Of a stretch of DNA of 64,000 nt, positions 5,190 to 47,919 are shown in pieces. The DNA lies in assembly GCA_033439295.1 (NCBI GenBank), contig JAVTLE010000016.1, positions 1,674,001 through 1,738,000 on the forward strand, in the 5' to 3' direction. Origin of the DNA: Deuterostichococcus epilithicus (lineage: Eukaryota > Chlorophyta > Trebouxiophyceae > Prasiolales > Stichococcaceae). Position numbers and translations under genes: made by a program. Every line of letters begins with the position of its first letter. Position 1 is the first letter of the stretch. Under the pieces are notes generated by a model that saw only the letters and a program-made list of their open reading frames with translations, was not told the origin of the DNA and searched no databases.

Positions 5190-6180
5190 TCAGCGAGACC
5201 AGTCGTGCAACAGAAAGCATGAACGTCCTGGAGTGGTGAAACCCTCACCTGCAGGGCCTGCAGGCCTCTCCATGCTCCTCGTGCACGCTGCATCATGAGC
5301 AAACTTGCACCCAAGTAAAATCTGCCGGCACGCTCACAACATCAATGAGGTTTGACTGATTGGGTATGAAGCTGGATAGACGATAGAGCCCAGTGTCGAA
5401 GGAAGCAGTCGTGCCACGTTGACAAGTTCGAGCCCCAGGTGGGCAAAGCACTATGCCGCGATGCTATGCAATTCCGCGATGACGAACAGTTTGAAGATGG
5501 CCACTCCGTATACAATCAAGGCTACGAGCACATCCGCGGCTCGCGCAACAGCAACAGGCCTGATGCTGGCTAACCTTGAGCTGATGAGTGATGATGCAAA
5601 CCCCCGGTGTCGTGGTGACGATACTGTGAAGGCTACAAACCCTGGCACAGCACCCGTGACTCGAGTCAAGTACCGCCACCGACCGCCTCCCGTTGAGGTG
5701 CACTTACGAAGCGTTGTCATAGTCCGTTGCAGTGAAGGGCCGGTTTGGCGGCCATTCCAGCTTATCGAGGCTGCAAGCACCTCAAAGCGCTGGCTGCCCG
5801 AAAGCACTTGGAGGGGAGTGTGCCAGCGGATGTCTAGTTCATCAACCTGCTGCTGTGCTGGCCAACATATCTTTCGTCTTTCTCTCTGCACGTTGAACGC
5901 CTAGTGACTGTAGAGAAATACTACACATCGACAGCGCTTCAGAGTGGAGTGCTGCAGTGGCCGTGCACAGCCAACCCCGCGCGTAGGTCCTCGCGGGCCG
6001 GCGTCTGCGGTGCACAGCGCAGCGATGGATTCGGTGAGGATCATTTTTTGGGACTGATGTTTGATGCTTCGGAGCTTCGTGCACGCCAGATCTGCGCGAA
6101 CATTCGACGTCGATTCACAGCTGTCCAATGGGAGGAATGGTCCTGTCTCAGCTCTGCAACCAGGCTGCCGCCTTGAACTC
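5190..6180. other. Intergenic region between divergent HslU and CYP710 genes
   Basis: It should hold the promoters of both neighbours. I see no convincing TATA box. A - strand open frame (5451-5891) ends in a hydrophobic stretch (VLVALIVYGVAIFKLFVIAE) that resembles one membrane span. It lacks a recognisable family or a convincing start, so I do not call it a gene. Confidence 0.5.
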
Positions 6181-9100
6181 ATGCGGTGTGTGATGCCCAC
6201 GCTGTTTTCGGCAATTCTGTGGGCCGCTGGCGTATCTGCAGCAGGCCCTGATCATCCTCCTGAGCAGCGGTGGATCGGCCGCCAAGCAGCGCCCAGCATG
6301 CTGAACTACCCGACACGCGAAACCGGACATGCTCCGTCGCAGGCGACTGTGAACGGCACCACGGGCGCATGGCAGGCGGCGCCGCCGGCATTGCTGCAGC
6401 GCAGCAGCGTCACGCCGGCAAGCCTGGCGCTGTGGGCGCTCGGCTCGCTGCTCGCCTACTGCGCCTACGAGCAAATCAGATTCATGATCTACAGGTGCAT
6501 GGAAACCTGTCGCTACCTGCCTGTAGGTACTGCACCCGAGTGGGCAGACCACGCCGCGGCTGACAGTGCCAACAATGCCATGATTAATGCCGGCTGATTG
6601 CGGCACCGCGCTCTGCGCACGGCTCCTGATCGTGTAGGCCGACCGTGTTGGCAGACGAGCAAGCTCGTTCGTCTTGCCTGGCTTGCTGCGATGATTGATC
6701 GAACTGGTTCAGATGCTGCAAGCATGCGCATCGAGATCTAGCACGCATGGGCATGACGTCCCGCAAGGCCAGCGCCCTGAGAACAGGACTGGGCGCTGCG
6801 CAGACGGGGCAAGGGCGGCAAGGCGCTGCCGGGGCCGCAGTACGTGGTCCCCTTCCTGGGCTGCATCGTGGAGATGGTGCTGGATCCGTTTGGCTTCTGG
6901 GAGCGCCAGCGAGAGTGCGGCTTTGTACCTCAACACGCCGCCGCGCAGCACTGATGCGTGGCATGCTACCTGCTGCTGCTCTCGTAGTACACGCCGTCGG
7001 CTGCGGATGCCATGCATCGCGCCGCAGTTACCGGCCTACACATTTCGCTGCCGCGTGGCGCTTGCTTGTCCCGCCGCTGAGACGCACGCTGCCTGCACAG
7101 GTTCCAGAACCCGGGGCTGACCTACAACAGCATCATGGGCAAATTCATGGTGATGGTGACGGACACGGACGTCTCGCGCCGCGTGTTCTCCTACAACGAC
7201 CCCAGCACGCTGCTCATGGCGGTGCACCCGTCCGCCAAAAACATCCTAGGCCCCAAGAACCTGGCGTTCATGCACGGCCCCCCACACAAGGTGGGCGCGG
7301 CAGCGTGTCTTGGACTGCGATCAAGCGTACGGCTGGCTGCCGCAGCTCGTGTCGTGGCTTTCGTCTGCAGAGCTGCCGACCCATATCGCAGCGGCGCCGC
7401 AGGAGCTGCAGCGGCGGCCACGCAAAGTCAGGCGTGACCTGATTGGCAGCTGTGCCGGCGGTCATTGACCCTCATGCCGACCGCATTCAGCGCTTGTTCT
7501 GCTGCACCTCTGATCGTGCTCCAACCTACTGTGTGCCACAGGCCATCCGGAAGTCCTTCCTGGCGCTCTTCACGAAGAAGGCTCTGGCCACCTATGTCGA
7601 GATCCAGGACACAGTCATCCGAGACCACCTGGCAGACTGGTTCCGGCAGCGGGAGGGCCAGGAGTTCGACATCAAGCAGTGTGTCAGGTGAGCCGTCGCG
7701 CCGCCTGCGCAAGCGGGCCCAAGGCAGCCCGGAAGGGCGTCGGGTGAACAGCCGGTGCTTTTGTCGCAGAACTGCAGGCATGCACAGTTGCATCACTGCA
7801 GCCTCGCCTGCGTGGCCTGCACCCAGACCCTCCGTCTGCTGCCTCTGGCACACCTAGCGAGGGATCCAGGCGAATCAGGAGAGTTGCAGCACCCGCATCT
7901 GGCCAGGGGCTGACATTCCGGCTCCGCATGTGCGCAGGGACATGAACGCGCGGACTTCGCAGGAGGTGTTTGCGGGGCCCTACCTGCAAGATGGCCCGGA
8001 GCGCGACCAGTTCAGCGCCGCCTTCATTGACATGACGGTCGGCTTCCTGGCGTTCCCGCTGTGCGTGCCCGGCACCGCTGTGTGGCGCGGCAAGCGGGGG
8101 CGCCTGCACATCCTGTCGGTGCTGCAGCGCGCCGCCGCGGCCAGCAAGGCCGCCATGAAGGTTCGCCAGTCGTCCGCCTGGACCTCTTGCGAAAACATCT
8201 TTCCACTGGCGGCGTCGATGCGTGGGCCCTGCAGCTGGCCACCGCCCCTCAGTTCTGTCCGTCGCATGCCGGTCCTGCAGCCGCACTGCAGCCGTGGTGC
8301 ACCGCGGGGGGCAGCCCGCTGCAATTCCTGTTGACCCCGGGCGGGCACCCGAACCAAGTCGAGACTGAAGCTGCCGCGTCGGTGGCAGCGCCTGCTGCCC
8401 CGCTGCCGCCACGCCCGCACCCTCCACCTGACCCCCCACTCCCGGCCCGGTGCGTCCTCCAGGCGGGCGGCGAGGCGCGGTGCCTCATGGACTTTTGGGC
8501 GCAGCGCTGCCTGGAGGAGGCGGCGGAGGCGGAGCAGGGCGACGTGCCGCCGCCGGGGCACACCAGCGACGAGGCGATGGCGGACACCGTGATGGACTTC
8601 CTGTTTGCGAGCCAGGACGCCAGCACCGCCAGCCTGGTGTGGACCATGACCCTGCTGGCGGACCACCCCGACGTGCTGCAGAAGGTGCGCGCTGTATGCG
8701 TGAAACGGTGTCTTCGTCGGGACTCGTGTGTCAATTTCCACGCCGCGGGAGCAGCGAGCCGCGGCAACAGCAAGTCGCGGCGGCGAAACGGTTTGACAGG
8801 CACATGCAGACCGCCAGCGCAGAGACCCGAGGACGTGTGCCCTGTCCAAGCTGTTGCAGGGTGCTGTGGCCCTGCGCCACGTCACTCCTCACGGAGCGGC
8901 GCTTGCCTGCAGCCGTGGTGCGCCTGCGCTACGCCCGTCCCGCCAGCCGCCCAGGCCTCCTCCTTGCAGCTCTGTCTCTGGTACATCTAAACCTTCACTG
9001 ATTATTTCGAAAATCCTTACAACCCAGCTTCATGACTGACCTCGTCCCCTGTGGCGGCGCAGGTGCGGGAGGAGCAGGCGGCGGTGCGGCCGGACAAAAA

Positions 9101-10620
9101 TGCGGTCATCACGGGGGAGGTGCTGTACCGCATGACCTACACACGCTCCGTCGTGCGCGAGATCCTGCGCTTCCGCCCGCCCGCGCCCATGGTGCCGCAG
9201 GCAAGCTCCCCTCCCTGCTTGTGCTGAAATGTACACAGTCTCCCACTTTGGGTGGACTGGAAGGGTGTGGCAGCACTGGGCACGTGTGTGCTGTGGCACA
9301 CGCTGTGACACAGCAAGGGTGGTGGGTCCTGGTGTCAGACTTGGTATTTTCCTGGGCATGCCCGTGCTACACGGCATCACTTGGTGTACATCACCAGGGC
9401 TGCCTGCACTGGCGCCTGGTGGATGCTTAACAATAGCCACGCTCGTGATGTACCTGTGTGGAGGTGCACTCGTCAGGGTGTAGTCCGCAGCCTCAGCAAT
9501 GGCTGCCCGCCAACAGTGGCACTACTGCATGCACCCGCTGCATTTCACCGGGTCTCACGCACCGGGTCTCCCCCTGCTGCTACCCCTCACATGCGTAGCT
9601 TCCATGGGCGGCCGCAGATCGCGCAGAACGACTTCCGGCTGACGGACGACTACGTTGCGCGCAAGGGCACCCTCATCATGCCCTCCATCACCGCCGCCGC
9701 CATGCAGGCAGGTCTCCTGCGGGTGCTGTCAAATCTCCCCTGCCAGACTCTTCACTTGCCCTGTCGCTCCCCGCAAAGCCTGTGTTGAGCGAGGTCGGCG
9801 ACCCATGAAGCGGACGGACACGAGTGCAAGAGTGCGTGTTCTGGGCAGCGCCAGATTTCAGTCTCCTGCTGCACAATGATGGGCCGGCGCGCCTTTGCTG
9901 CCTCCAAACCGGCCAGGGGCTCTCGTGCAGACATGCCTGCACTGCACGCAGAGAGTTGCTTAGGCCGCCCAGCAGCAAGCGACGTGCCGGGGACAGCGAC
10001 AGTTGCGCCAATGTCAGTCGTTGTCGCCTGTCCGAATTATGGTCCCTGATCTGCTGAGTGGCCAAGAGATGGAGTTCCGTCATCCTGCAGGGCTTCAAGG
10101 ACGCGCACAAGTTCGACCCGGAGCGCTTTTCGGAGGAGCGCCGAGAAGACGTCACCTTCAACAAGCACTTCCTGACCTTCGGGTTCGGGCCGCACGGCTG
10201 CGTCGGGCGCGAGTACGCGATCAACCACCTGGTCGCCTTCCTGGCGATCGTGGCCACCTCCGCGGGTGCGCCGCTGCTGCAACGGACAGTCTCGCGCTGC
10301 TTCCGGCTTCTGCTCGTGGTTCAGAAGTCCTTCGGCTGCACGATCTCGAACCGAGCAGCTGGTCGCGCAGCCGGCTGCTGGCCTGCTTAGCCCGTGTGCC
10401 GATGCTGTTAGGGGACAGCAGCAGCAGGGACAGCAGCTGTGGTGGCTCTGCTGCTCGCGCTGCTGTCCATGAACCGCCTGACCTTGACCGGCTGCTGGGC
10501 TTCATGCCTGCAGACTGGACGCGGCGCCGGACACCGAAGTCGGATGACTGGATCTACCTACCCACTGTCTACCCAGCCGACTCCTTCATCACCATGCGAA
10601 GGCGCGCAGGCGCCGCTTGA
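6181..10620 (+). CDS. CYP710: Cytochrome P450, CYP710-type sterol C-22 desaturase
   Basis: Plant and algal CYP710 enzymes (ERG5 relatives) put the C-22 double bond into sterol side chains in the ER. Ten exons join in phase: 6181-6494, 6804-6924, 7108-7290, 7542-7687, 7938-8160, 8463-8684, 9063-9200, 9618-9707, 10091-10265 and 10514-10620, giving 572 codons plus TGA. Visible landmarks are the N-terminal membrane anchor (SLALWALGSLLAYCAYEQ), LPGPQYVVPFLG, NLAFMHGPPHK, the I-helix FASQDAST, the ExxR motif EILR followed by RPPAPMVPQ, DPERF, and the heme loop FGFGPHGCVG. The RPPAPMVP and QDAST signatures fit CYP710 better than CYP51 or other families. Introns after exons 7 and 8 need GC donors. 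The N-terminus is longer than usual (family about 500 aa). The start may be ATG 6181 or 6193. It is divergent from HslU. Confidence 0.92.
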
Positions 10621-11947: not shown

Positions 11948-14419
11948 GGCGAAAGGCGTGGCTTTGACAAGTAGCGGCAGCAGACCTGCAGCGCACAGCA
12001 ACAGGACACTGTCAGCTGCACATCACAACAGCGAGTCTGCATCTTTCAAAGCGGCCGCATCACCCCTCCAGAAGGATTCAATATGACCTATGTATGCTGT
12101 ATGCGTTGTGCGCCAAGCAACAGCTCTGTCAGGCTTGACGTCTTTGGTTGCGTAACACCGGAACGCGTTGTCGCGGTGAACGACCCATAACCGGCACAAG
12201 TCCACGGCAGGCAATTTACACATCCAGGCACCCCTGACTTCAACGATCCTGAACCCAGACACGCGCTGCGGGCCGGCGCAGTCCGGGCCTGCGGCCAAGT
12301 AGATGCAAGGGCGTAGTCCACTGGCGACGGCCGCGGTGCAAATGGCGCACCCCGTATGTCCTGCGTCCGACGTCTTGTAGCAATGATGCAGATCAACGTT
12401 TGAAGCAGGTGTTGCTGACAGGGGCCCGAGAAGCGCGCACCTCTTGGCAGGCAGGCCGTCGGTCTGGAAGACAGGAGGGGCGCCGAGCAACGCGGAGTGA
12501 CGGTCGATGAGGGTTTGGAGCAAGAATGAAAGCGGCCTGGAAGCTCAGCCGCTGCAACCGAACCCCGGGTATGGCCTGGAACTGTGCACTCGCCTGCCAC
12601 CTTGACGAATGCGGCTCATTACTTCGCTGCCTGCCACTTGGCTTACCGTCAGCACATCTTCCCTAATCATGGCTAACCCTGCAAAAACCCTTAATTAAAA
12701 ACCCTTAGGACTTCATCCTTTAACACTTAGGTGCGGAGATCCCTCTACCCAACACTGCTCATGTTCTGGCTTTCGTCAGGCTTCACCAACTCTTCGGGTT
12801 TACACACAGCAGACATCTCGGCCAGGCCTGAGGCCTTTCTCCGGTGCATATGATTGGCATTTAAATCGCTTACGACTGCACAGCATGCGCCTGATGTCGG
12901 TCACAAACCAGCAGGGGCGCCCGCGGCCAGCCCTGCGGCCGCATGATGGAAGCGGTGCAGCTGAAGTGTCACTCCTGCAGGGGATTGCAGTTGACGACGG
13001 CGTGACCAGTATCTACATGCCTTCACTGGCAGAATAGGTACATTGTCATCAGAATGATTTGCACGCCGGTGGTGAATGGTCAGGTGCGAGATGAGCGGGC
13101 GAGCAAGCCTGCAGGAATTTGATGTTTACAGTGATGAACAGTGCAGCCACTCGAGCATGAACAGCCGAACGAAGTCTGCGGCACGCGCAAACGAACGGCG
13201 CTGAGATCAACACGCATGGAGTGCCTCGCGGGCCCAGCCTTCTGGCGGCAGGGCCCTGATCAAAAAACAGCGAAAGCGAAACAATGGCATTGTCGACTGG
13301 TGCAGACCCAGGGGCAGACCTAAAGCAATGCTGTCGGAGAGTTGCTGGTTCCCTTCGTGGCACAGAAATGGCACTGCTGTCGGCGCAAAGAGCGCCGGAC
13401 AGATGATCCTCATGTGAGGCGCCAACATCCCTGACTGCGCCCCTCGTCTCCGAGCCCCGACCGATGAATCGTGGACCCTCAAACAACCTGTGGAAAACTA
13501 TCTGCGCCTATATGCTGCTAACCACTCACAATTCTTCTGTTTCCCCTGTGCGGGCCCCCTGACAGGCCCCCCTGGGTTTCGAGTTTTGCCCCAGGCGACC
13601 GCTGGCTACCGTCCCACCCGGGTCATGCAGGCTGCAAGACGACCAGCCCAGAAGCGCCTGTTGGCACAGTGTCGGCTGCTTGTCGCGCCGCCAGGGCATA
13701 ACATTGCCAGACCGCCGGCGGCTTGTGCGACTGCTCAAGTGCAGCAGCAATGCTTGGCTGCTGCACCCTCCGCCTGCTTGCTGTGCCCCAAGGTGCTTCA
13801 TCCTGGCTGCCGCGACGGCCGCCTGGCTTGTGGCTGCGCGAGCCCGCTGCAACTTGGGCGACGGCACAGCATCGTTGCGAGGCTGCACGCAGCGTCCGGC
13901 AGCCGTGGGGCTGCCCCGCGGGACTCCCTTTGCTGCTCGACTGACAGCCCCAATGAATTGTGCGCGGGGCTGGGGTGCGGGCCCATGTTAGTGTGCGCGC
14001 TTGCGACCCAGCTGCTGCCCCTCCACTCCCCAAGGCGCTGGGCCTGGCGCCAGCCCGAGGCAGTGGACTGCCTGACACCTGATGCAGCAGCAGAGATGCA
14101 TGTTCGTCAGAGGCGTTGTATACAAGTGGAAATGGCACAAAATCCTACACAGTGTTTAGGATGTCGGACATCACTATAACATAGAAGTTGGTGCATGAGC
14201 GCAGCATGGGAGAGAAGCAAGGCCTGCAGCACAACGGCAGTGCATCCATCATGAAGCAGCGGAGGGCTCGAGTCCTAATCACACCGTATTGAGAGGCTGC
14301 AAACAACGAGAAGGGTTCGATCTTGATGGGGCACACACACCTTGGGTCAAAGGCGGCGCCGGGGTCAAAGACCCTCAGGCGCCGCCCTGTGGAGAGCCAA
14401 GGTGACTGCCGGATGGCGC
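11948..14419. other. Gene-poor stretch without a supported gene
   Basis: Open frames exist on both strands: 12023-12523 and 12088-12600 on -, 13490-14179 on +, and 13623-14138 on -. All are compositionally biased, overlap each other and lack motifs. The segment 12660-12720 is unusually AT-rich with scattered AACCCT-like pieces, but it is not a telomere array. I see no RNA gene. Confidence 0.4.
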
Positions 14420-17199
14420 CTATCGCCTCCTGTAGCCGNAGCTGCCGTAACCACCGTANGTCCCGGTGGCGGGCGGNGGTGGCGNGGGAGGCGGCGGCGG
14501 NGGGGGCGGCGGCGGCGGTGGGGAGCGTAGGACGCGGCCTGTGCGCCAGAGTAGGTGCCGTAGGTCACGACCGGGGAGGGCGGCGGCGGCGGAGGAGGAG
14601 GCGGGGGCGGCGGTGGAGGGGGCGCGTAGGAAGCGTAGGCGCCCCCAGTTGCTGTNGCTGCAAACGNNACATAAGNATCAGTGACAGGCTGATTCNTGTG
14701 TNATCCAGGTTGGTGAAGCTGTTGTGCGAGGACGCCAGGCAGTTGTCACCATCTGAGCTGACACATGTAATTCGTGTGCAACAGTGTGAGGTGACGCGAT
14801 TGCGAAGATGTGCTCACCGGAGCCATAGTTCATTGGGGGCGGGGAGGGGCGGTGGGGGAGGGGGAGGCGGCGGGGAGGGGGCGGTGCGTACGAAGGATAG
14901 GCGCCCAGGCGTGCGCCTGCAGGGTCAGATGTCACAGCTCGTCATCAAGACACCCGATGTGGCAAACCAGGGTATATCTGCAACAGGTGCACAGCGTGAG
15001 ATACACAATGAGAATAGCAACACTGTACAGCGCTACTTCACCAGACGCACCGAAGTATGTGCCGTAGACCGGAGGAGGTGGAGGAGGTGGCGGTGGGGGG
15101 AGGAGGCGGTGGCGGAGGCGGCGCGTACGAGCCATAGCTGCCGTAGCCCTCAGCGGCAGCAGCACCAAAGTAGGTCGGGGGGTGGGGGAGGCGGCGGGGA
15201 GGGGGCGGCGGGGAGGCGGTGGCGGCGCATAGCTGCCGTAGCCGTAGCCCTCAGCACCAGCGGAGATGCCGCCAAAGTATGTGGGTGGGGGCGGCGGGGG
15301 AGGCGGCGGGGGAGGCGGCGGGGAGGCGGTGGCGGCGCATAGCTACCGTAGCCGTAGCCCTCAGCACCGGCGGAGATGCCGCCGAAGTATGTGGGTGGGG
15401 GTGGGGGCGGCGGTGGCGGAGGAGGAGGAGGGGGTGGGGGCGACGGAGCATATGAAGCGTAGCCACCGTAGGGGGCGGCAGCCCGCGCGCTCGAGTACGT
15501 CGGAGGAGGGGGCGGCGGCNGNGGCGGAGGGGGTGGAGGGGGCGGTGGGGGCGGCGCGTATGAACCGTAGCTGCCATAGCCCTCAGCGCCTGCAGAGATG
15601 CCGCCAAAGTAGGGCGGCGGTGGCGGCGGGGGAGGAGGCGGCGGGGGAGGCGGCGGCGGTGGCGGCGGCGCGTAGCTGGCGTAGGAGCCTGCAGAGGAGG
15701 AGGATGCCGCTTCGGTTGTGATCGGCAGGATTGCAACAGTGCCCTCCAGCAAGGGGTGCCTTGTCGTCAGCCTGATGTGCGCTGATGTGCGGCAAGCAAC
15801 ATCTCCAGAAGCCAACAGGCTCCCCCGCAGCACACCAGGCTGGCGACCTGGTCACGGCAGCAACAGATGCACGTGCCATCCACGCATGCAGCACATCGTG
15901 GAGCCACGAATGGTAGCGGCAGTGTGCATGGTACAGACTCGGCAGCAGACAAGTGGCCTACCTGCAGGGTAGGCGCCCAGGCGCTCGCCAAAGTAGGCGG
16001 GCGGCGGCGGGGGGAGCGGCGGGGGGGGAGGCGGCGGCGGCGGCGGCGGAGCGTAGCTGGCGTAGCCGAACCGGGCGCCTGTGCAGCAGGAAGGAACGTT
16101 GGACAACGACCAGGGGGCCGAGGGAAGGCACCAGTCATGCAGCAAGTGTAGAGCGCATCAACATCAGGAGCGCCGCCTGTCTGCAGCAGCTCGATGAGCG
16201 CCGCAGCTAGGTTTCCGCACATCTACCGAGACACAGCAAGCTCCCACTGCCACTCACCGGTATAGCTGCCGTAGGCCGGCGGTGGCGGCGGGGGTGGGGG
16301 AGGAGNCGGCGGGGGTGGTGGCGGCGGCGGGCCATAAGCTGAGGTCACAGCGCCTGTGCAAGGTGCAGCACGCTGATCAGACGCTGCGTGTGGATGCAGC
16401 ATCGCGGTGCGGTCGTACAGATGTCAACAGTCCGCCCAGCTCCGTAGGCCGTTGTGCAGCTGATTGGCCAGCCTCCTGTGCATCAGCCCCTCCTACCACG
16501 CCCCGGCCTAGACGGTCTATGCCGTCAGCGAAGCCGAGACGTCGCAAGTGGAAACCAGCAAATGTGATGTGCCCCTCAACCGGCGCAAGGACAGGCCGCG
16601 GGGCTCGGGGGTGGTTGGGACGGAGGAGGTGCTGCCTAGGTTCGTACCTCCGCCGTAGCCCGAGTAGGCTGGCGGTGGTGGGGGAGGAGGAGGAGGCGGA
16701 GGCGGAGGGGGAGGCGGAGGCGGCGCGTAGCCGCCATAGCCGCTGCCATAGTAGTACTGCGCTGCTGCGGGCTCCGGCGCGAAAACGGCTGCCAGACACA
16801 CCGCGAAAAGTAGGACGCCCAGACCCTGCAAGACAAAGCAAGCAGCGGATCAGGCGGCCTGCAAAAGGCTTCCAGATGCAGAGAATGGGTAGATCCGACC
16901 GGCGGGACGCGGCCCGGGGGCGACAGCGCGCGCGGGCGAGCTGTTGACCGAAAGAGATTCGACGCACGACTGGTGCCCGCTTCAAGCGCGGGGCCGGCCG
17001 GGGGCCTGGCACTCACGATGCGAGCCCGAACAAACGTCGTCTGCGGCAGCCGTGCCGGCCGCGTCGTGCCGGGAGTACAAGGACGGGCAGTCGGGCGGGG
17101 GGAAACAGCGGCTGCTCGGGAACCACTGACTGAGGGTCGACGCACGGTTGGCGGCTGCGAGCCCCGGCCGGCCCCGACGCGGGCCGGGCCGGGCTTCAT
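14420..17199 (-). CDS. Modular Tyr/Pro-rich secreted protein, extensin/HRGP-like
   Basis: Probable cell-wall glycoprotein. An exon starting after a TTGCAG acceptor (about 16825) encodes a signal-like stretch (GLGVLLFAVCLAAVF, then PEPAAAQ), followed by YYYGSGYGGYAPPP. Later exons repeat one module: a Tyr/Gly/Ala/Ser linker (GYGSYA, YFGGISAGAEG, ARFGYASYA, ERLGAYPAG), then 10-18 prolines. Every junction I could resolve is phase 1 (exon ends in G, next begins with GC). The frame closes in TYGGYGS...GYRRR and TAG at 14420-14422. Several proline runs shift the frame by one base relative to the next linker, and the region contains N bases, so the annotated frame is broken as sequenced. A 5' exon from ATG 17199 joins in phase but would put ~60 Arg/Pro-rich residues before the signal sequence, so the true start is uncertain. 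Confidence 0.7.
15210..15400 (-). repeat. Tandem repeat of one proline module in the wall-protein gene
   Basis: Two copies with a 110-base period (15210-15288 and 15320-15400) differ at only a few positions across the part encoding YFGGISAGAEGYGYGSYAPPP. Looser copies of the module continue on both sides (about 15080-15180 and 15450-15700). Confidence 0.85.
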
Positions 17200-17861
17200 G
17201 GCCCTTAGAATGACCAGACCGGCCGTCCTGCGCCGGCTCGGCCTGCGGCCGAGCTGTCTCCGCGCGCTACTAACCCCTGTTGTCTCCAGTACCGCAGGAC
17301 GGTCGCCCCTACCTGGCGAAGCCGGCAGGCCGCGGGGCTGCGGCGTGCCATCTCCGTCGGGCGGGCTGCTAGATCCGCCTTCGGCGTTGCAGGCGTCTCC
17401 GGCTCAGGGGCGGCGGGGTCTACTCCGGGCGGCCTCTCAATCTGTGTGCAGCCGACTAGAAGTTGCACTTGCCGCGGCCTCTGTCAGCCGATGGCGCTCA
17501 CGGCTGTCTCTGGGCAGCCTTGATCCGCTGCCGGTATCCGTCTCCGTCCACGCGGCTGGGGTCGGGTCAAGCTGTGCTGTGCGGTTTGAGCGCCCGACCG
17601 GCTCTGCCAGAAACTGGTTGCACTAGAGTCCCGATCGGTCGTTCGAAACTTACCCCAGTCCGGAAATTTTCAACCCTCATGGAGAACTGTATGCTTTTTG
17701 GCGCCAAGCCCACTGGACAAGCCCCGTCGATGCGGATGGACGGTCCCGGTTTGTTGACTAGTAGGGCGGGTGAGTAGACAGAAGCCCTCGTGGTACATCC
17801 AGGACCAATTTACCGCGATCAAACAAATGTACATGGCCAACGAAAACCAAGGCAAAGCTCC
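17200..17861. other. GC-rich region between the proline-rich and RING genes
   Basis: It lies 5' of the proline-rich gene and 3' of the RING gene, so it should hold the promoter of the former. A long + strand open frame crosses it (16973-17626), but it is Arg/Gly/Pro-rich, has no motif and runs over the 5' exon of the gene on the other strand. Nothing else is recognisable. Confidence 0.4.
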
Positions 17862-17866
17862 TTACA
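17862..17866 (-). terminator. Probable polyadenylation signal (TGTAA) of the EGF-RING gene
   Basis: TGTAA reads on the - strand 36 bases past the TGA of the RING gene, at the spacing usual for green algae. Confidence 0.6.
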
Positions 17867-17901
17867 TACATACATAAACACAGTTGTTGCAACCACCCGC
17901 G

Positions 17902-20472
17902 TCAGCCGCCGACAAACAGGCGCTGGCGGCGCACGACCTCCCTGCGGCAGATGGGACACCGCTGCAGCCGCCGCGAGCACCGGCGGCACATGCACGCATG
18001 GCCGCAGGGGATGACGACCACCTGCAGACAGGAACCCGGACGGCCGTTGTTCTCGAGCCCCCAGCGCACAAGACAAGTTCGCCATGAACTTGACCATACA
18101 TGCTGAGTCAACGCACACAGCTGTCCTGTAGTCCTGCAACCAGAGAGCCAGAGAGCCAAGCCCTAGGCACCTCGTCAAAGCATTTGCTCGCGCTTTCGAG
18201 TGATCCCGTCAACAGACCTGTATTGGACGTGTGAGGCACACGCTGCAGTCCAAGCTGGCGAGCGGGCCGCTGGCCTGCGACTGCCGCCGGCCCTCCTCCA
18301 CCAGCTGCGCCTTCTGCGGCAAGGAGGCCATTGCACAGGTGTCAGGCGAAGCCCGCTGGCAGCCCTGCGTCAGTGCTCCAGACCGGCAACGCTATCACTG
18401 TCGCCGAGATGCCATCCCAGATACGGGGCGCATCCAGTGGAGTCCCGACAGCGGTGCCGCATGTGGCCTGACGCGCTGACGCCGCAAGGCTGCGCCACCG
18501 CTGGCCAGCGATGGGGAGCGCCCAGCCAGTGGCGCTGCCCGTCAATGCTGCCTGCCGGATCGCAGCGAGGGGCGAACTCACTCGGTGCGCCTTGCTGGCT
18601 GCGGCCTCCAGGTCCGCCTCGTCCACTGCTGCGTCTTCATCGCGCGCCACCGGCTCATCGGCAGACCGTGCCGCCTGCGCGTATGCAGGTGCAGCCTCGA
18701 TGGGAACAGCTCCCCAAGCTCGTCGTTATGCGGCTGTGGAACAGCCACGAGCACGCTCACACGCCGTGCAGGGCAGCAGCGTGCGGGTCACCACGCTTGC
18801 TGGCTGTTACTCCCGCTGCAGTCGTGCTCCAGCACCCTGCACGAGCAGCCAAGCACCTGGATTTCGATGCTGGTGTGCGGCTGCGGTGATGCCGCTGCCG
18901 CTGCCTCCGCTCCTGACTCTCCCGAGGAGTCGACGGCAGCCTGAGGCGCTGTGGGTGCTGCCGTGCCAGCTGCTGCCTCTTCGGCAGGGGCTGGGCTGCT
19001 GACTGCCGCCGCCTCACTGCTGTCGCCTGTGCGCACGGCACAGCCTCACAACGCATGACACCCCAGGGTCCTTCGGCAAGACGACCGAAAGCTGCAGAGA
19101 AGAACGCACTGTTGGCATGCACCAATGTGCTGCAGCTGATGGGCAACTGCCCCTGGGCCATCCCGACAGCCACTGTCTGATCGGCAGTGGCGCATCTGCA
19201 AGCATGAGGTGCCTGCAATGCCGGATCTCAGGGCGTCGCACCATCAGCAGCAGGGTGGCGCGCACGCCGCAGCGCCTCTGCGCGGTAGGTGGCGCGGATG
19301 GTTTCCGCCAGTGGCGCCTCCACTGCCCGCATGGCCTGAAGATCAGACGCAGCATCAGCAGCCCGTCGTACTCGCCTCAGCGCCTCCGCACGTTTGGTGT
19401 TGTAGGGTCGCTAGGGGCTCAAAGCCCTTCCTGGATATGCCGCTGGCCACAACACCATGGTACAACAGCAAGCGTAAACACGGCGTCTGATAAGCAGGCA
19501 GCACCAGCCTGGGCAGCACCGACCACAGGCTTCCAATCGATCCCTGGCGACAGCCCGGGTCAGTGCCATCGGGCCTCGTGGCGGCCACGGACCAGCACAC
19601 CGCAAGAGTGGCCGCCTTGCCTGCAGAGGACAGGGTGAGGGCTGCTGGCACGGGGGAGATGCGAGGTGTGGGCCTGGTTGCACAGTAAAAGGGAGCCCAA
19701 AGGGGGGAAAAAGGAAAAACAGTAACCTCCGCCACGGCGGCGGCGTCGCCGTGCTCCGCGTGCGCGATGATGGCCTCCATCTCGCGCATTGCGAATTCAA
19801 TGCCCGCATCCAGGTTGGCCGGGTACCGCCGCTGGCTCTCCCCGATCAGCCGCTCCACTGACTCCAGCCTACGGTGGCAGTTTCAGGGACTCGAGGTTTC
19901 CGTCTGAAGGCCAAGCGCATTCGCAAGGTTCACAACCCCTGCTCTGACAGACGTCCAGATCCTGGTGTGACAGCTTTCTGGCTCGCAACTCATAGCCGCG
20001 TCTTGCACCGCCGAGCGCCGAGCGCCGAGCGCATCCGGGCACCACAAAATTACCGAGCAGGCTGCCGTGCCAAAGGCCAGGACCGCCATGGCGCTGCAGC
20101 GCCGCATGATACAGCGACTGCATCGGCAGGTCAGACTCATACGTACGTTGAACCAGCACAGCCCTGACCCAGCACAGCCTGTCGAAGCAGCGGCCACAGA
20201 GCAGCCTGCCTGGCCACAAGCGCAGGACGCAGGCGCTCGCCTGACTTGGTCCACGGCCTCGGCTGTGCGGTCGCCGGCCTCCCCCGCCTCCCGCGTTGCA
20301 GACGCCACCTCCCCGATGGCGGCCTCCATGTCGGAGTCGCACTCCGTGGTGTCCTCGCTGCCGACGGAGCCCACTTCGTCGTCCAGGCCGGCCAGCAGCG
20401 GCTCCGCCGCCGGGTCGCCGTCCTCACTGACGTCGTCTGCGGGCCGGGAGTGCACACCTCTGGCACAGCGTG

Positions 20473-20509
<37 letters not shown>

Positions 20510-22855
20510 GTCACGACGCAACACAACAAAGAAGGCCTCGCCAGGTCTGCAGGGACGCCGGGTTGCGGAGACAGCTGCACCCCTTCATTCCTCCGTGTGC
20601 GCTGGCCGCAGCTCAGGTGCAGCACGCAGTCGCTCATGCATCCAGACAGAAGGTAGTGATGCTGCCCTGCGAATCAGAGACCCGCAGGAGCCAGAGACGA
20701 GTCATGCGCACCGCCACGGGGCAGGATGTCGAAGTGCCGCAGCACCCGGCCAATAAGCGCCAGCAGGATGCTGACGCCGATGCACGCGCCCAGCACGATG
20801 ATCGCCACCAGCCAGTTGGGCAGGTCCTGCAGGGCATGGCCAAAGCCACCATGAGGAGCGGCCCTGCACTCGCAGACGTGCAGTGCGTTCGACCATAGAG
20901 TAGCACTTCAAAACCAGTCCCAAGCCGAACAGCTTTTCAGAACGCTGGATGCCAGGCTGGGCAACTCAGGATGCACATGCCCGTCTGCCCTCAGTCACAC
21001 CATGCCGCGGCTCCCCACGTGTGGGCAGTCACCTTGGCGCCGGCGCCGGGCGGGCGCACACTACAATCGGCGCCGCGCCAGCCGCCCAGGCACTCGCACC
21101 GGCCCAGGATGCACACGCCGCGCCCCGAGCACATGTTCTGGTCGGCGCACGTGTCCATGCGGTGGATCGCGCTGGAGAGGCACGCCTTGCAGCACTTTGC
21201 CGGCGCCACTGGCACATACTGTGTCGCGAAGGTCATCCTGCTGCAACACAAAGGCGAATCTTCAACGAGAATTGCACCCTCAGCCTGCTAGAAGAGACAG
21301 AGCCACACCATCAATCCCCGCACATTGCCCGCATCCGCTTTGTGCAACCACGAGGATGGAAGCAGGGGCGGCCGACATGTGCAGACGCAAGCAGCAATGT
21401 AGGCATGGATGTGGTGCAGTTGGGCAGTGGGTTGGAGGAGGCATGATGACAGCTCATGTCTGGTGTGAAAGCGGTTCAACGCACCGCCAGTGCTCGTAGC
21501 CAGCCAGCAGCCGGTTGGTCGCCTTGCCACCGCAGTTGATGCTGTCGGAGGTCTGGCAGTCGCAGCGTTCCAGCTCCCACGCGTCCCCATTGGACAGCAG
21601 CACGCTCGGCGTGCTGTGCACGTGCGATAGATAGGCGTGAGGCAGGAGGAGGTGCATTCCTAGATCGGGTGTGGGCAGCCCAGGAGCTCACACACGCGTG
21701 TCAAGGGATGCTGGGGCAGGCATAGGCTGCAGTCAAACGGGCAGGTCTCGTAGGCAGACTCATCCTGCTCAGAAGCACGCTTGCTGCTCAACACGAGGGG
21801 TGTCGACGAGGAGTACACACCAGCACTCTGCGGCGCCGACAGGATAGTAGGCGTCCAGCGCCGCGCTGACGCGATTTGCCTCCGCATAGCCCGCCACTAG
21901 CGACGCGGCGGTCTCGCACTGCAGCTGCTGCGCGCCTGCGGCATGGCAGCAGTAGGATGGAGCAGATGGCATAAGAACCCTGCAGGCAGGCCGGTGGGTT
22001 GGTGGGCAGCACCACGACCATGTGCACTTGTTTGCATGGCCCCCCACCATTGTAACCTGAGCCCACGTGACAGTGGGAGCACCTTGGGCGGAGGACTTGT
22101 GGCAGCCGATCGACACGATGGCCACCGCTGTGGTCACGTTGTCGTGCCCGCCGAGCCGCTGCAAGCTCGGCGGCAGCGCCTTGGGCAGGCAGGGCCGGCA
22201 GCAGACGGCGCGCGACAGCGGCACCTGGCCCCCGCCCGCCAGCCACTGCCCCTCCCGCTCAAAGTCAGACACGAAGTACCTAATCAGGCGCAGAAAGATG
22301 TTGGGAAAGACCTGTCGGTGCCTGCGGATGCTGATGGTACAGGATTCGACATGCGTCCATGCTCTGTACATGTCGGCCTTGTTGGTCAGGGCCTCGGTGG
22401 TCATGGCAACAGTGTGAGGGCGCAGCATGATGATGCATCGACCACACGCAGCTGCTATGCCCGCGAGACTGCACGCACCCCTCCTTCTCGCAGGACAGAC
22501 CGTAAGGACTGCCTGTGGCGGGTTCGCAGTCGCAGAGTTCCAGCGGTTTTGATTCTGCTGTGCGGAGCAAGAGTGGGTGAAGGGCACCGTGTTTTTGAAT
22601 GCGGCATGGTTGCAGAGACTGGGTGTTCATGTGATTGGTCATCTGAGAATGCAGCGCCAATCAGAGCATACAGCACCAGCAGCGCATGGGAATGCGCTGC
22701 AGCAACTGAAGAGGGTCCGCACCGGCCGAGGCACTACTCGCCAAGTCAGGGCTTGAGGCAAAGCCTGCTCCTTCAACCTTATAGGCCGTGGCATCTGGCG
22801 CTACGTGCAAGGCCAACAGGAGGGCAACATAGCCTAGACCTGTGTGTTTCAACAT
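17902..22855 (-). CDS. Type I membrane protein with EGF-like ectodomain and C-terminal RING finger, candidate E3 ubiquitin ligase
   Basis: Fourteen exons join in phase to about 620 residues. Order: signal peptide ([19 protein letters not shown]) from ATG 22855; a Cys-rich ectodomain with paired motifs LELCDC and LERCDC; an EGF-like module ([13 protein letters not shown], then [12 protein letters not shown]); one transmembrane helix ([20 protein letters not shown], about 20780); an acidic stretch (20280-20430); a helical segment with [11 protein letters not shown] and [17 protein letters not shown]; an Ala/Glu-rich spacer; and a C-terminal C3HC4 RING. The RING spans exons 18218-18313 (CSVC) and 17902-18021 (PCGH, CRRC, CPIC), and resembles IAP/MULAN-type C-terminal RINGs. 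Predicted topology puts EGF outside or in the lumen and RING in the cytosol. Two adjacent genes remain possible if the junction near 19850-20260 is wrong. No ligase activity is shown by sequence alone. Confidence 0.72.
20470..20512 (-). repeat. CAG/CTG triplet run in the EGF-RING gene
   Basis: An imperfect triplet run (CAG on the - strand) lies just before the acidic exon. Read in the exon's frame it would code polyQ. The phase-compatible acceptor (GCCCGCAG) lies after it, so it is probably intronic. The run offers many alternative CAG acceptors. Confidence 0.7.
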
Positions 22856-23314
22856 GCTGCATGTGTCACGGAAGTCACGATGTCATGACCCCGCAAGCTG
22901 GAGCTGAACTTTGACGGAGAAAGCAAACGAACCCTCCGAGTGCAACGTCAAACTGAAAAGCGTCTATACGTCACATGTGCTGTTCATCAAACCATCAGGG
23001 GACCTGCACAATGCTGCACGAGTCCCGGGATCAAGCTGCAGCGAGCAGCGAGCCTGGCATCACTCAGCAACTTGACAACCGTGTCAAAGGTTCTGCAATC
23101 GTCCGTTGTACCTAGCTGACCGAGCTGCACCCGTGGCTTTCCTGCTGGAGGTCATACGCCCTCATTTCTCCATTATAGCGCGCTGCAGCAGGCTCTAACA
23201 TAACGTAGACAGGCTTTTCAGGCTGCTTTCCAGATACGTCTCAACTTTCGAAGCAGACAGATGATGTAGTCAAGCTTCTCCGCTTGCACTTATCTCACAT
23301 CAGCGCGTCAAAAC
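22856..23314. promoter_or_regulatory. Shared 5' region of the divergent EGF-RING and CCDC12 genes
   Basis: Only about 460 bases separate the two start codons, so both promoters must lie here. No TATA box or clear repeated operator is visible. Confidence 0.5.
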
Positions 23315-23826
23315 ATGGAGGATGCCGCGGCAAGGAAGGCGCGGCTGAAGCGGCTCAGAGAGGAGGCTGACGCAACGGAGGCAGTGCAGGCCGCGGCAGA
23401 GGAGCCGAAGCTCAAGTTCAGGAACTATGCGCCGCGGGACGAGAAGATCGAGCATGATGCGGTGCCGCAGCCGGATGTGAAGGAATTTGAGCCGCCAAAG
23501 ATTGAGCTGGAGCAGGCCGATGATCAGGAGGTGAGCGCACGATACGAGTCTGCCAATGCCGGCCTCCCTGCGAGGTGTTGGAGTTGGGCAGTTGAAGCAG
23601 ATGTCAACAGCCGATGTGGAGCGCCAGGTCAATGCCTCGTGCGTGGTCGCCTGCGCCACAGGATCTGCTCATAAACGTGGCGCCGAAGAAGCCAAATTGG
23701 GACTTGCGGCGTGACATCGCCAAGAAGCTGGAGAAGCTGGAGCGGCGAACGCAAAAGGCCATGATCCAGATTATGAAGGACCAGGAGCGGCTGCGGCTAG
23801 AGGCGGAGGGCGGCCAGCAGGATTGA
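23315..23826 (+). CDS. CCDC12: CCDC12 / cwf18 family spliceosome-associated protein
   Basis: Small coiled-coil component of activated spliceosomes. Two exons, 23315-23530 and 23662-23826, join in phase 0 to 126 aa plus TGA. The N-terminal exon is charged and helical (RKARLKRLREEADATEAV, LKFRNYAPRD). The C-terminal exon carries the family signature: LLINVAPKKPNWDLRRD, then KKLEKLERRTQKA. Length and order match the family (about 110-170 aa). It is divergent from the EGF-RING gene and convergent with the glutathione transferase. A TGTAA signal lies at 23868-23872. I see nothing missing. Confidence 0.93.
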
Positions 23827-23867
23827 ACATAGCAGCGGCGCTGTTCTGTGACGTGGCGGTTGACCTT

Positions 23868-23872
23868 TGTAA
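23868..23872 (+). terminator. Probable polyadenylation signal (TGTAA) of CCDC12
   Basis: The TGTAA motif begins 42 bases past the CCDC12 stop codon on the same strand. Confidence 0.6.
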
Positions 23873-24077
23873 TGTTCAGACATGTTGCCAGGGAGTGCAG
23901 CTCTCTGAAGCCGCTCCGTTTCTGACCAGCAAAACGTTTTAACAGGCACAATGGTACAAGTTCCCATCTCGAGGTGGACCCGCTTGTGTCGCTAGCCAAC
24001 CATGCGGCACCACAACGCTATTTGAAGTCATGGGCGCTCGTTGACTTCGCTGTGTTGTCTGCAGCAGAGGCACCTGC

Positions 24078-26294
24078 TCAGTGCCAGCAGCCAGGGCAGG
24101 ACAGTTTTGCTCCGTAGGCAGGTCCCCGCACAGTGCGCAGGCAACCATACTCACCTAGGTACCACACACAACAGCAGAGAGCTGCATCAAAGAGCGCCTG
24201 TGTATTGTTGTGCTTGCCTGCGTATTTGGAGTAGTGGTTCAGCAGCTCCTCAGGGTACTTCTCGTCGCCCTCTGGGTGCGTCTGCGTCGCCTTAACGGCT
24301 GGGTGCGCCGCTATGACACCCATCCATCTGTGCAGCCGCGGCGTGTCGTGTGGCAGCGAGAAGCCACGGTAGTGCTCCAGGATGTGCTGCGAGCGAAGAA
24401 CGATGCAATGTTGAGGCATATGAGATGCAATGTCAGGGCAGGTGCATTGGCACAGTCTAGATGCGCTGTTCTGCAGTGTCGCACGGGCCGCTGTGTAGCA
24501 ACACTGACATGGGCAGCAAGCGCGGTCGCCAGCCACATGGCAGCAGCAGACTTGCATCCTGCGCACACCAATGGACTTTCTGACTTGACGATCTCGATGC
24601 AGGTTAGCCGCCACAAGCAGAGCCCCCGAACCTGCCGCAGGAACCAGGGCGCCAGCGCCGCGTCCACGAGGGAGAAGTCGCTGCCCATGAAGAACGGGCC
24701 GCTCGGGTGCGCCTCGCCCTCCAGCCATGCGGCCTCCGCCCGCAGCTTCTCGGCGCACTCCGCCTGCTGCTGCTTGTCCTGAGCAAGGAGGCAACAAGTT
24801 GGGCCGGTGCAGCCCGGCGCGCTGTGGCCATCAAGCACGAGGAGACGACCACCGGGCCGGCAGACTACTGCGTGTGCGGGGAGGCAACTGTCGAGAGCCA
24901 GGTGGTGCGTGTGCATCTGCGATTGGCGTGCAGCTACTTCCACGACGTGCATAATGGGGCCGGGGAAACCTCAACCTCAAGCTTGGACCCTGGAGCGTAG
25001 GCCGCACCTGCCGCACGAGGAAGCTGTAGAAGGTGGGCACATATTTGGAGGCGAAGCGGTCGATGAGGATGCGGGCGCGGGCGCGCGCCACAGGGGCCTC
25101 TGGCAGCAGCGGCTTCTCCTTGTGCCAGTCTTCCAGGAACTCATTGCAGATGCTGCAGAGGAAGGCTGTCAATTCGTTCACCAGGAAGCATGCAGCGGCC
25201 TGGATGTAGGCGTCAAGCACCAGGTGTTGCGAGTCTAGTGTCACACGGCGGATCTGGCGGCGCGGCGGCTGTGCTGCGAGGCCGCGGCAGCCCGCCATGG
25301 CGGCTGGCACACATGAAGAGCTGCAGGGCGGGGTGCCGGCAGCGCACACAACGGCACGCTTCGCAGCCGCATCCGCTTCCACAGCAGAGGCTTCACCCAG
25401 ACTCAGCAGAGGCTTCACCCAGACTCAGCGTCAACTTGCATGGTTCCTGAAGACTGGCGGGATGCAACATGGCGAGGGGGAGCAGGGACGGCATCGCACT
25501 TGCTCTCATAGACGCTCTGCACTTTGCCGCCATCGTCTTTGACCACCAACACGGGGACCTTTCCTGCGCATCCAGACAAGCATGCACAATTGGATATGGT
25601 CCTTGCAGCAACCTATCGCATGCACAGAGCCATTGAGGCATGGGAGCGCTGCACACCCACCGAGCGGATTGAGCCTGAGCCACCACTCCGGCTTTTCGTC
25701 TATTTGGAACCACTGGCCTGCGGTGCAAAACTTGCAGTGTCTCTACTTCGTTCTGCCGCTGGCCAGCACAACGGTTCGCCTTGCTTTCTCTATGAAGCCT
25801 CATCAGGGTGCATCCTGCATCATGAGACACTTACCTGTCGATGTATTCTTGAGCGCCACTTCATGAAGTGTCTGGGATCAAGTGCAGAAGCTCCTCATCT
25901 CGGCGCGCGGTATATCAGAACATGCATGTATTCATTTCGTTCACGGCAATGCGCCAATCCTGATACAGCACTCACATACGGCGCGCCCTTGGCCTCGAGC
26001 GTAATCCAGGTGCGCTGCGCAAATGGGCAGAACCTGATGCAGACGACGACGAGTTTGAGTGGCCGCAAAGTGCTCACTCAAGTACGGTGCACCAGCTTGC
26101 ATGCCCTATGCCGACCCATTCAGTGCCCAGTGACCTTTTGCGCATGCCACGCGCATGCCATGCACTTTGGGTGATGGTAGGCGAGCCATTGCGAACGGCA
26201 GTTTTTGTTTGCCTAACCAAAGACCGCACCAGGCGCTCAAGTAATTGAGACCGGACTTCCAGACTGGCTCCGATTGCAGAGACTTTGTCGCCAT
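24078..26294 (-). CDS. Glutathione S-transferase, Cys-type (omega/lambda-like)
   Basis: Thioredoxin-fold transferase or thiol reductase using glutathione. Exons on - join in phase: 26230-26294 (start MATKSLQSEP), 25976-26033 (FCPFAQRTWITLEAKGAPY), a 37-nt micro-exon at 25835-25871 (TLHEVALKNTST), then GKVPVLV and VYESN, ICNEFLEDW, a C-terminal helical domain (FMGSDFSLVDAALAPWF) and LHRWMGVIAAHPAVKAT. The CPF motif has the catalytic Cys of omega, lambda and DHAR classes rather than Ser or Tyr. VPVLV with ES forms the glutathione site. No transit peptide is seen, so it is likely cytosolic. The last ~40 codons, after YSKYAG, continue open to a stop at 24078. They may be partly intron, because a GTGAGT donor-like site follows LCCCVWYLG. 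Confidence 0.88.
25383..25426. repeat. Perfect 22-bp tandem duplication in a GST intron
   Basis: Two identical 22-base units (AGCAGAGGCTTCACCCAGAC plus TC) stand head to tail at 25383-25404 and 25405-25426, between GST exons. They look like a recent slippage or repair duplication. Confidence 0.9.
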
Positions 26295-26865
26295 CCCAAC
26301 GGGATTGCGGTAGATACAGTTGATGAAGCTGGTGCGTGTCGCCTTCGCGATCTGCAGTCAAAGATGGATCAGTTGATGAAAGCAATCTGTGCCTCGAGAC
26401 TGACATTAGATCTGTCAGCGGCCTGATCCAACGTTTTGTTGGAGGAGCCATTTAGAAGCTGAGTTTGGCACCCGAACAAGCAAGGCGGCAAAACTAGCGG
26501 CAAGTCGAGCGCCGATCTTTACAGAACTGGTGAAGTCGTGTGTCAGGCCCGCGAGCAACCGGTGCTTGTCTTGCATGCAGCGGTTGGTAGTGCGTGCTGA
26601 AACCCACGGCATATCGAGTCTTCAGTCTGGCAGGAACGCATTTTGGCGCACAAGCAGCACGACAGCAAACAGTGATGTGTGGTTCTGGTGGCTGTGCTAC
26701 ATATCTTTGTCGACAGTTGCCAGGTGTCTATCCCGATCACGCGGCGCCTTTCACCAATGCCGCCAGCAGCTTCGCAGTGCCGCCAGATGTTTGGGGGCAT
26801 CCGCCCATTCGCCTGCCTGCCGCCAGCACCAGATTAGTGCCAGTGACGTTCGGCGGTCCCCTCGT
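26295..26865. other. GST 5' flank and CK1 kinase 3' flank
   Basis: It holds the GST promoter and the 3' region of the kinase gene on the same strand. A TGTAA on the - strand at 26519-26523 is the nearest polyadenylation candidate for the kinase, about 340 bases past its stop. No further gene is supported. Confidence 0.45.
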
Positions 26866-47500: not shown

Positions 47501-47919
47501 ATGTTCCTGCGGCCGCTGCTCCAGCAGGTGAGGCATGTGCTGCTGGGAAGCCCTGCTTGCCTTGCATTTGATTGCAGGCACTTTGAACGGCATCCCAACA
47601 ACCTTTCCAGCTGCGATTGTCCTCGTGAACCTCTGTGCCCTTACGACTGTCTGACATGCAGCGCAGCGTCTGCCTTTTGTCACACTGCCTGCGTCTGACT
47701 TGCGCCTGCTTGTGAAGGTGGCGACAGGTTATTGATTGTGCACTCAACCTCGGAGCTGAGCCAACTCGTTCAATTGATGCATGTGCATTGCTGCAGATGC
47801 GCGGCATGCTTGGCCATGGTCTGCAGTCCCTGCTGCTCGAGCAGCTAGCAGCGACGGAAGACTATTGGCGTCGCCACGAGGCGCGATCGAACGCTGGTGC
47901 CGATTCCGCCGGCGCCTGA
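44573..47919 (+). CDS. Class I cyclic nucleotide phosphodiesterase (HD-type PDEase)
   Basis: Hydrolyses cAMP and/or cGMP. The catalytic domain is spread over several exons: TWDRFDVFRVAELTQGRPLYTV (in two visible parts, TWDRFDVFRVAEL and TQGRPLYTVAMAIFEALGLL), WKLDRRKVEAYL with GNPYHNSTHAADV (first metal His), AIVHDIAHTGLTNDFL (HDxxHxGxxN), TLLLRVLLHAADLSNPARP (metal Asp), then a C-terminal helix exon with SLLLEQLAATEDYWRRHE, ending AGADSAGA and TGA 47917-47919. All metal ligands expected of class I are visible. A Gln/Ala-rich insertion (46900-47080) separates the HD and D motifs and is longer than in animal PDEs. The N-terminal exon from ATG 44573 (MLAVQPAAMHTPGVHL) has no known domain; upstream exons are possible. 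No membrane span or GAF domain was seen. Confidence 0.88.

Follow-up and report, generated by a model that had tools for sequence, protein, structure and literature searches.

A gene of the green alga Deuterostichococcus epilithicus predicted to join an EGF-type ectodomain, one transmembrane helix and a C-terminal RING

The window analysed here is a stretch of 64,000 nucleotides from the green alga Deuterostichococcus epilithicus (assembly GCA_033439295.1; contig JAVTLE010000016.1, hereafter C14, C14:1674001-1738000, from a genome of 46.8 Mb in 21 contigs). On its minus strand lies a gene, which we call the EGF-RING gene, whose placement by splice sites and reading frame gives 14 exons in phase from an ATG at 22855 to a stop at 17902, encoding 652 residues; 12 of the 13 donors are GT and one, that of exon 8, is GC. 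The same start, stop, strand and exon number had been proposed in a sequence-only reading of the window, and all were reproduced. In sequence order, the product comprises three Cys-rich repeats and an EGF domain, a single transmembrane helix, an extended acidic linker and, at its end, a RING. Overall, the earlier observation of an EGF ectodomain, one membrane helix and a C-terminal RING within a single gene is confirmed in its essentials by Pfam domains above their cut-offs, by hydropathy and by a gene-finder posterior, and the middle part of the gene model is well supported.

Two six-cysteine EGF profiles match the ectodomain above their curated cut-offs, namely EGF_Teneurin (PF23106; 32.7 bits against 24.3, residues 253-279) and EGF_2 (PF07974; 22.8 bits against 22.1, from residue 248). 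The sequence-only reading had described a Cys-rich, EGF-bearing ectodomain; the EGF part stands, and the Cys-rich part resolves into three tandem repeats followed by one EGF domain, an arrangement that it had missed. The repeats are named R1, R2 and R3, and the fullest copies read C-x-C...C...P-x3-A-x-C-C-x2-C. Because two MAFFT alignments were gappy, the repeats were scored pairwise, giving 39 for R1-R2, 52 for R1-R3 and 56 for R2-R3; scores at least as high arose in 17, 0 and 0 of 5000 shuffles, respectively, and in 50, 19 and 2 of 5000 when the cysteines were held fixed. The protein contains 32 cysteines, with 22 before the transmembrane helix, one within it, one after it and eight in the RING stretch; the ectodomain cysteines are divided into 6, 4 and 6 in R1 to R3 and 6 in the EGF domain. 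R2 is two cysteines short, a pattern that would be expected from losing one disulphide. Since the repeats run across the junctions of exons 2-3, 3-4, 4-5 and 5-6, they support these four splices.

No Pfam model scored above its cut-off for the Cys repeats or the linker, and no additional copies of the repeat were found among the best-scoring candidates in the alga's own genome. Specifically, a first search gave 12 matches, six of which are the EGF-RING gene itself, the other six being weak or centring on EGF (E 9e-4 to 0.37), and both matches of a second search are the EGF-RING gene. Relatives of the ectodomain were likewise not found in viral and prokaryote contig collections, a null result that says little about algae.

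The highest 19-residue hydropathy, 2.98, lies at residues 293-311, and values outside residues 286-318 do not exceed 1.51. At the C-terminus, zf-C3HC4_3 (PF13920) matches with 47.1 bits against a curated cut-off of 27. The nearest RINGs of solved structure are those of XIAP (1.8e-10), the cIAPs, CGRRF1 and BIRC7, followed by MYLIP and MUL1 (MULAN, 6e-6), so that of the description "IAP/MULAN-like" in the sequence-only reading the first half fits best and the second half fits less well. The alignment to XIAP and cIAP1 is gapless from the first cysteine to the terminal phenylalanine (Phe 649, with three residues following), the zinc-ligand places are filled, and a cysteine in the fifth of them makes the domain C3HC4. 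In RINGs of the IAP type, the terminal phenylalanine and an arginine after the last cysteine pair matter for ubiquitin transfer; this arginine and a C-terminal aromatic residue are both present.

To the sequence-only reading, a split between the transmembrane exon and the RING exons would have meant two separate genes. To check the model independently of our own placement of exons, we used a hidden Markov model (HMM) gene finder whose training set was 200 kb from elsewhere in the genome, in 20 stretches of 10 kb; at the end of training it predicted 31 genes with 435 exons. A first version had included the window in its training. With the window left out, the finder places one minus-strand gene at the locus (22404 to 17902), and the probability of no intergenic state between 18000 and 20720 is 0.9999 (0.99976-0.99997 over five parameter settings), which argues for the two sets of exons belonging to one gene. 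In-frame probabilities at the midpoints of exons 3-13 are 0.945-1.000, and those of the bridging exons 8-12 are all at least 0.998. In a control, the finder assembled from 15 exons an HslU protein that the NCBIfam HslU model TIGR00390 matches over positions 1-441 of 441, and the p450, PDEase_I and cwf18 proteins that it predicts cover most of those Pfam models.

Several results of the same finder weigh against the model as drawn. The single-gene posterior depends on a simple model, and the finder gives a probability of 0.148 to a merger with the next minus-strand gene downstream. Exons 1 and 2, and hence the signal peptide, receive a probability of 0.000; in the finder's version the gene begins at 22404 and exon 3 at 22321. 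At the other end, its best path closes exon 13 at 18240 and retains only 17902-17941 of exon 14, with coding probabilities in the RING exons of 0.026 at 18230 and 0.405 at 17960. We overruled these shortened exons because the RING aligns ungapped and the shortening would break it. Exon 10 probably starts at 19335 rather than at 19410, the start in the 14-exon in-phase model, which would make it 25 residues longer in the same phase. The finder agrees with the start of exon 12 at 18674 but extends the exon to 18384. Of the 14-exon model in the sequence-only reading, exons 1-2 find no support in the finder, the preferred start of exon 10 is moved, and exons 13-14 are cut by the finder. An extra exon of 20 nucleotides at 19601-19620 was dropped, as it broke the frame.

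Table 1 Features of the EGF-RING gene (window positions) and the candidate second gene. P, gene-finder probability.
Feature	Position	Strand	Support
Exon 1: signal-peptide-like start	22723..22855	-	Open reading frame scan; weak; P 0.000
Exon 2: first half of repeat 1 (LELCDC...C)	22479..22557	-	Homology of repeats 1 and 3; P 0.000
Exon 3: remainder of repeat 1, start of repeat 2	22083..22279	-	Midpoint P 0.945; finder's best path opens at 22321
Exon 4: repeat 2	21821..21935	-	Finder borders identical; P 1.000
Exon 5: end of repeat 2, first half of repeat 3	21485..21613	-	Finder borders identical; P 0.998
Exon 6: second half of repeat 3, EGF domain	21033..21237	-	Finder borders identical; P 1.000
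Exon 7: transmembrane exon, helix about 20746-20814	20712..20826	-	Hydropathy 2.98 over 19 residues; finder borders identical; P 1.000
Exon 8: acidic, predicted cytosolic region; GC donor	20241..20436	-	Finder borders identical; P 1.000
Exon 9: linker, helical by eye	19727..19868	-	Finder borders identical; P 1.000
Exon 10, preferred start 19335	19242..19335	-	Coding P 1.000 at 19300, 0.000 at 19400; midpoint P 0.999
Exon 11: low-complexity linker	18857..19026	-	Finder borders identical; P 0.998
Exon 12: acidic linker	18582..18674	-	Midpoint P 1.000; borders matched by first finder version
Exon 13: first half of RING (CSVC)	18218..18313	-	Midpoint P 0.949; RING match; finder end 18240
Exon 14: rest of RING, C-terminal tail ending LFVGG, stop	17902..18021	-	PF13920, 47.1 bits; ungapped to XIAP tail; midpoint P 0.402
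Teneurin-type EGF domain	21054..21134	-	Pfam PF23106, PF07974; HMM search of the alga's own genome, 39 bits at this site
Three tandem Cys repeats (R1 residues 48-103, R2 124-179, R3 187-238)	21177..22549	-	Pairwise scoring against shuffles
Candidate second EGF-TM-RING gene	C12:1656180 to ~1658655 (L045 4180 to ~6655; L045 = C12:1652001-1661000)	+	

The 5' end was judged on other grounds. Exon 1 was retained because, among the seven open reading frames of at least 20 residues that begin with ATG in 22558-23314, it is the sole one with a hydrophobic N-terminus and a GT donor in the right phase (phase 1), and exon 2 was retained for the CDC half of repeat 1 that it contains. An open reading frame like exon 1 also arises in 82 of 1000 base shuffles. 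The signal peptide is thus a plausible reading of exon 1 to which the finder gives no probability, and the type I topology rests on the cysteine pattern together with that open reading frame. Head to head with the EGF-RING gene, with start codons about 460 bases apart, stands a plus-strand gene for a cwf18 (CCDC12-like) splicing factor (23315-23826). Just downstream, on the minus strand at 14420-17199, is a predicted wall-protein-like protein whose start is hydrophobic and which contains long stretches of poly-proline.

TGTAA is a usual poly(A) signal of green algae, and the only minus-strand copy in 13131-26518 starts 36 bases past the EGF-RING stop. We rejected it as support for the gene end: among 43 predicted gene ends from 273 kb (the window and the stretches L019-L038 and L045), TGTAA followed within 300 nucleotides in eight, compared with 11 of 43 in a reverse-strand control, and the motif accordingly carries no weight here. 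Elsewhere in the window, the 15-exon HslU gene, for a bacterial-type protease ATPase matched end to end by TIGR00390, occupies 482-4983 on the minus strand of this 2.9 Mb contig. On the plus strand, a predicted cytochrome P450 at 6025-10620, which we take to be CYP51-like, and a predicted cyclic-nucleotide phosphodiesterase at 44573-47586 were also found.

The protein was also compared with known membrane ligases. At E<=1, a level at which HMMER filters drop most very weak matches, Pfam listed in it no PA domain (PF02225), no BIR domain, no BAM/GIDE domain (MULAN, MAPL) and no APD luminal domain (plant APD1-4); Pfam contains a BAM/GIDE model and APD models. The EGF-type rather than PA ectodomain seen in the sequence-only reading, which had asked for such a domain search, is supported. 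The PA-TM-RING E3s (GRAIL, RNF13 and RNF167; plant RMR) are, as predicted for the alga's protein, type I proteins with a luminal binding domain, one transmembrane helix and a cytosolic RING. Of what defines them, the alga's protein has the single helix between ectodomain and RING, whereas its ectodomain consists of Cys repeats and EGF with no PA listed, and its RING is a C3HC4 of the IAP type, not RING-H2. The IAPs (XIAP, cIAP1/2, BIRC7) share the RING and the terminal aromatic tail, ungapped in XIAP and cIAP1, whereas the alga's protein spans the membrane and has no BIR listed. As PA, RING-H2, BIR and BAM all fail, we class it as a variant within the single-pass membrane RING E3s.

RNF43 and ZNRF3 are transmembrane E3s, with an ectodomain and a RING type that differ from those of the alga's protein. 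They take away receptors under the control of their ectodomain, according to the available part of PMC3905715. A further parallel, which the sequence-only reading had missed, is MEGF8 or ATRN acting with MGRN1, where a single-pass EGF protein is coupled to a RING E3 at the membrane, in two polypeptides there and in one chain in the alga. ATRN, too, has EGF domains. The RING again differs, being nearest to the IAPs and matching MGRN1 only with E 0.037. MEGF8 is described in the available portions of two articles as a single-pass adapter with multiple EGF domains that brings a RING E3 to membrane receptors (PMC12752501, PMC13161197). Among the matches listed from open-licence literature, as titles and the starts of abstracts, we found no EGF-TM-RING protein, and one could still be in print. 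In the part available, a review of 49 human transmembrane RING proteins presents the PA-TM-RING proteins as unique in their extracellular or luminal domain (PMC4021871), and no word beginning with EGF occurs in the main text of that review or of a plant RING E3 survey (PMC6118397).

We also examined whether the pairing recurs in the genome. Scans gave at least 63 RING matches of two Pfam families and at least 15 EGF matches at E<=1, some of the latter sharing a gene. For two of the EGF matches, that of the window gene and one at C12:1656270, a same-strand RING lies no more than 5 kb downstream, where 0.05 such pairs would be expected by chance. A second EGF-TM-RING gene, missed by the sequence-only reading, seems to exist in the same genome. 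There, EGF_Teneurin scores 18.1 bits unspliced and 25.5 (cut-off 24.3) after removal of the finder's intron, EGF_2 stays at 17.2 bits, below its cut-off of 22.1, hydropathy reaches 2.57 after the EGF domain (best elsewhere, 1.46), and a RING-H2 (59.7 and 56.2 bits in two scorings) lies within a single open frame that ends soon after. The finder gives a probability of 0.9999 to one gene from EGF through RING. Because its best path splices within the RING and continues beyond, the C-terminal position of this RING is our own reading of the frame. Both genes have EGF_Teneurin, one strong hydrophobic helix and then a RING, whereas the C12 gene has a RING-H2 and another ectodomain in which no Cys repeats were seen by eye; it is probably a separate fusion. 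Upstream, the finder places an intergenic gap in four of five settings, the fifth being undecided. The predicted gene beyond that gap (L045 1631-3822), with an EGF-like region and a similar WAYF-LDLP stretch, may be the N-terminal part of the C12 gene.

Elsewhere in the genome, a PA match (C1:746306, with one internal stop, perhaps an intron) has a RING-H2 (C1:744639) 1.7 kb downstream on the minus strand; this pair (C1:744639-746473) is likely an ordinary PA-TM-RING gene. The light-harvesting family PF00504 has 39 matches at exon level in the genome, which, together with the introns, mark it as that of a photosynthetic eukaryote.

With a probability of about 0.6, we read the locus as a single gene for a type I RING E3 that crosses the membrane once and belongs to the secretory pathway, activity and location both being predictions. 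In such a protein, the signal peptide would put the Cys-rich part outside the cytosol, in the lumen or at the surface, where the ectodomain may bind a ligand or a membrane client. On the cytosolic side, the RING, which belongs to the dimeric IAP type and keeps a C-terminal aromatic residue, would recruit an E2 and ubiquitinate the bound client or itself, leading to endocytosis and vacuolar turnover. A combined sensor and ligase is plausible, and the best reading, by analogy, is that the protein works like RNF43/ZNRF3 or like a MEGF8-MGRN1 pair in one chain.

It is improbable that two adjacent genes, one for a secreted or membrane EGF protein (exons 1-8 or 1-9) and one for a soluble RING protein (exons 12-14), were falsely joined. 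GC content at codon position 3 drops to 0.61-0.71 in exons 10-12, compared with 0.82-0.94 in exons 3-9 and 0.88-0.90 in exons 13-14, which speaks for such a false join, but exons 10-12 are each in frame at their midpoints with a probability of at least 0.998, and under all five settings the absence of a boundary between 18000 and 20720 kept its posterior of 0.99976-0.99997. Rather unlikely, yet a more serious contender, is a cargo receptor of the RMR/VSR type, whose ectodomain would bind soluble Golgi cargo and whose RING would steer the receptor's own trafficking, not the destruction of others. VSRs carry EGF repeats, and RMRs, as the available part of PMC5085694 describes them, are dimerising type I proteins with a luminal PA domain, a single transmembrane helix and a cytosolic RING-H2; the C3HC4 RING and the lack of a PA match at E<=1 speak against this kinship.

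Very improbable, in our view, is an adhesion or wall-sensing EGF protein that uses its RING for dimerisation only. IAP RINGs, the closest to that of the alga, do dimerise. Two EGF-domain proteins occur in Scenedesmus cell-wall material, according to the part of PMC11839794 at hand. Against such a pseudo-ligase, the zinc-ligand places, the arginine after the last cysteine pair and the terminal aromatic residue are all retained.

A receptor carrying its own ubiquitin ligase couples an outside signal to the removal of membrane proteins, and the known set of membrane RING E3s with real ectodomains is small. Here, an EGF module outside and a RING inside are found in one predicted chain, a pairing for which animals are known to use two proteins. 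We tentatively suggest, at somewhat less than even odds, that these genes represent a so far unrecognised group of EGF-TM-RING receptor ligases in algae of this kind, which arose two times or more, each with another RING, and do in one chain the job of MEGF8/ATRN and MGRN1 in animals, and that the triple Cys repeat is an undescribed extracellular module. Two such genes would suggest that the pairing of EGF and RING arose more than once, and, if true, their presence in one alga would offer a single-cell system for what these receptors sense.

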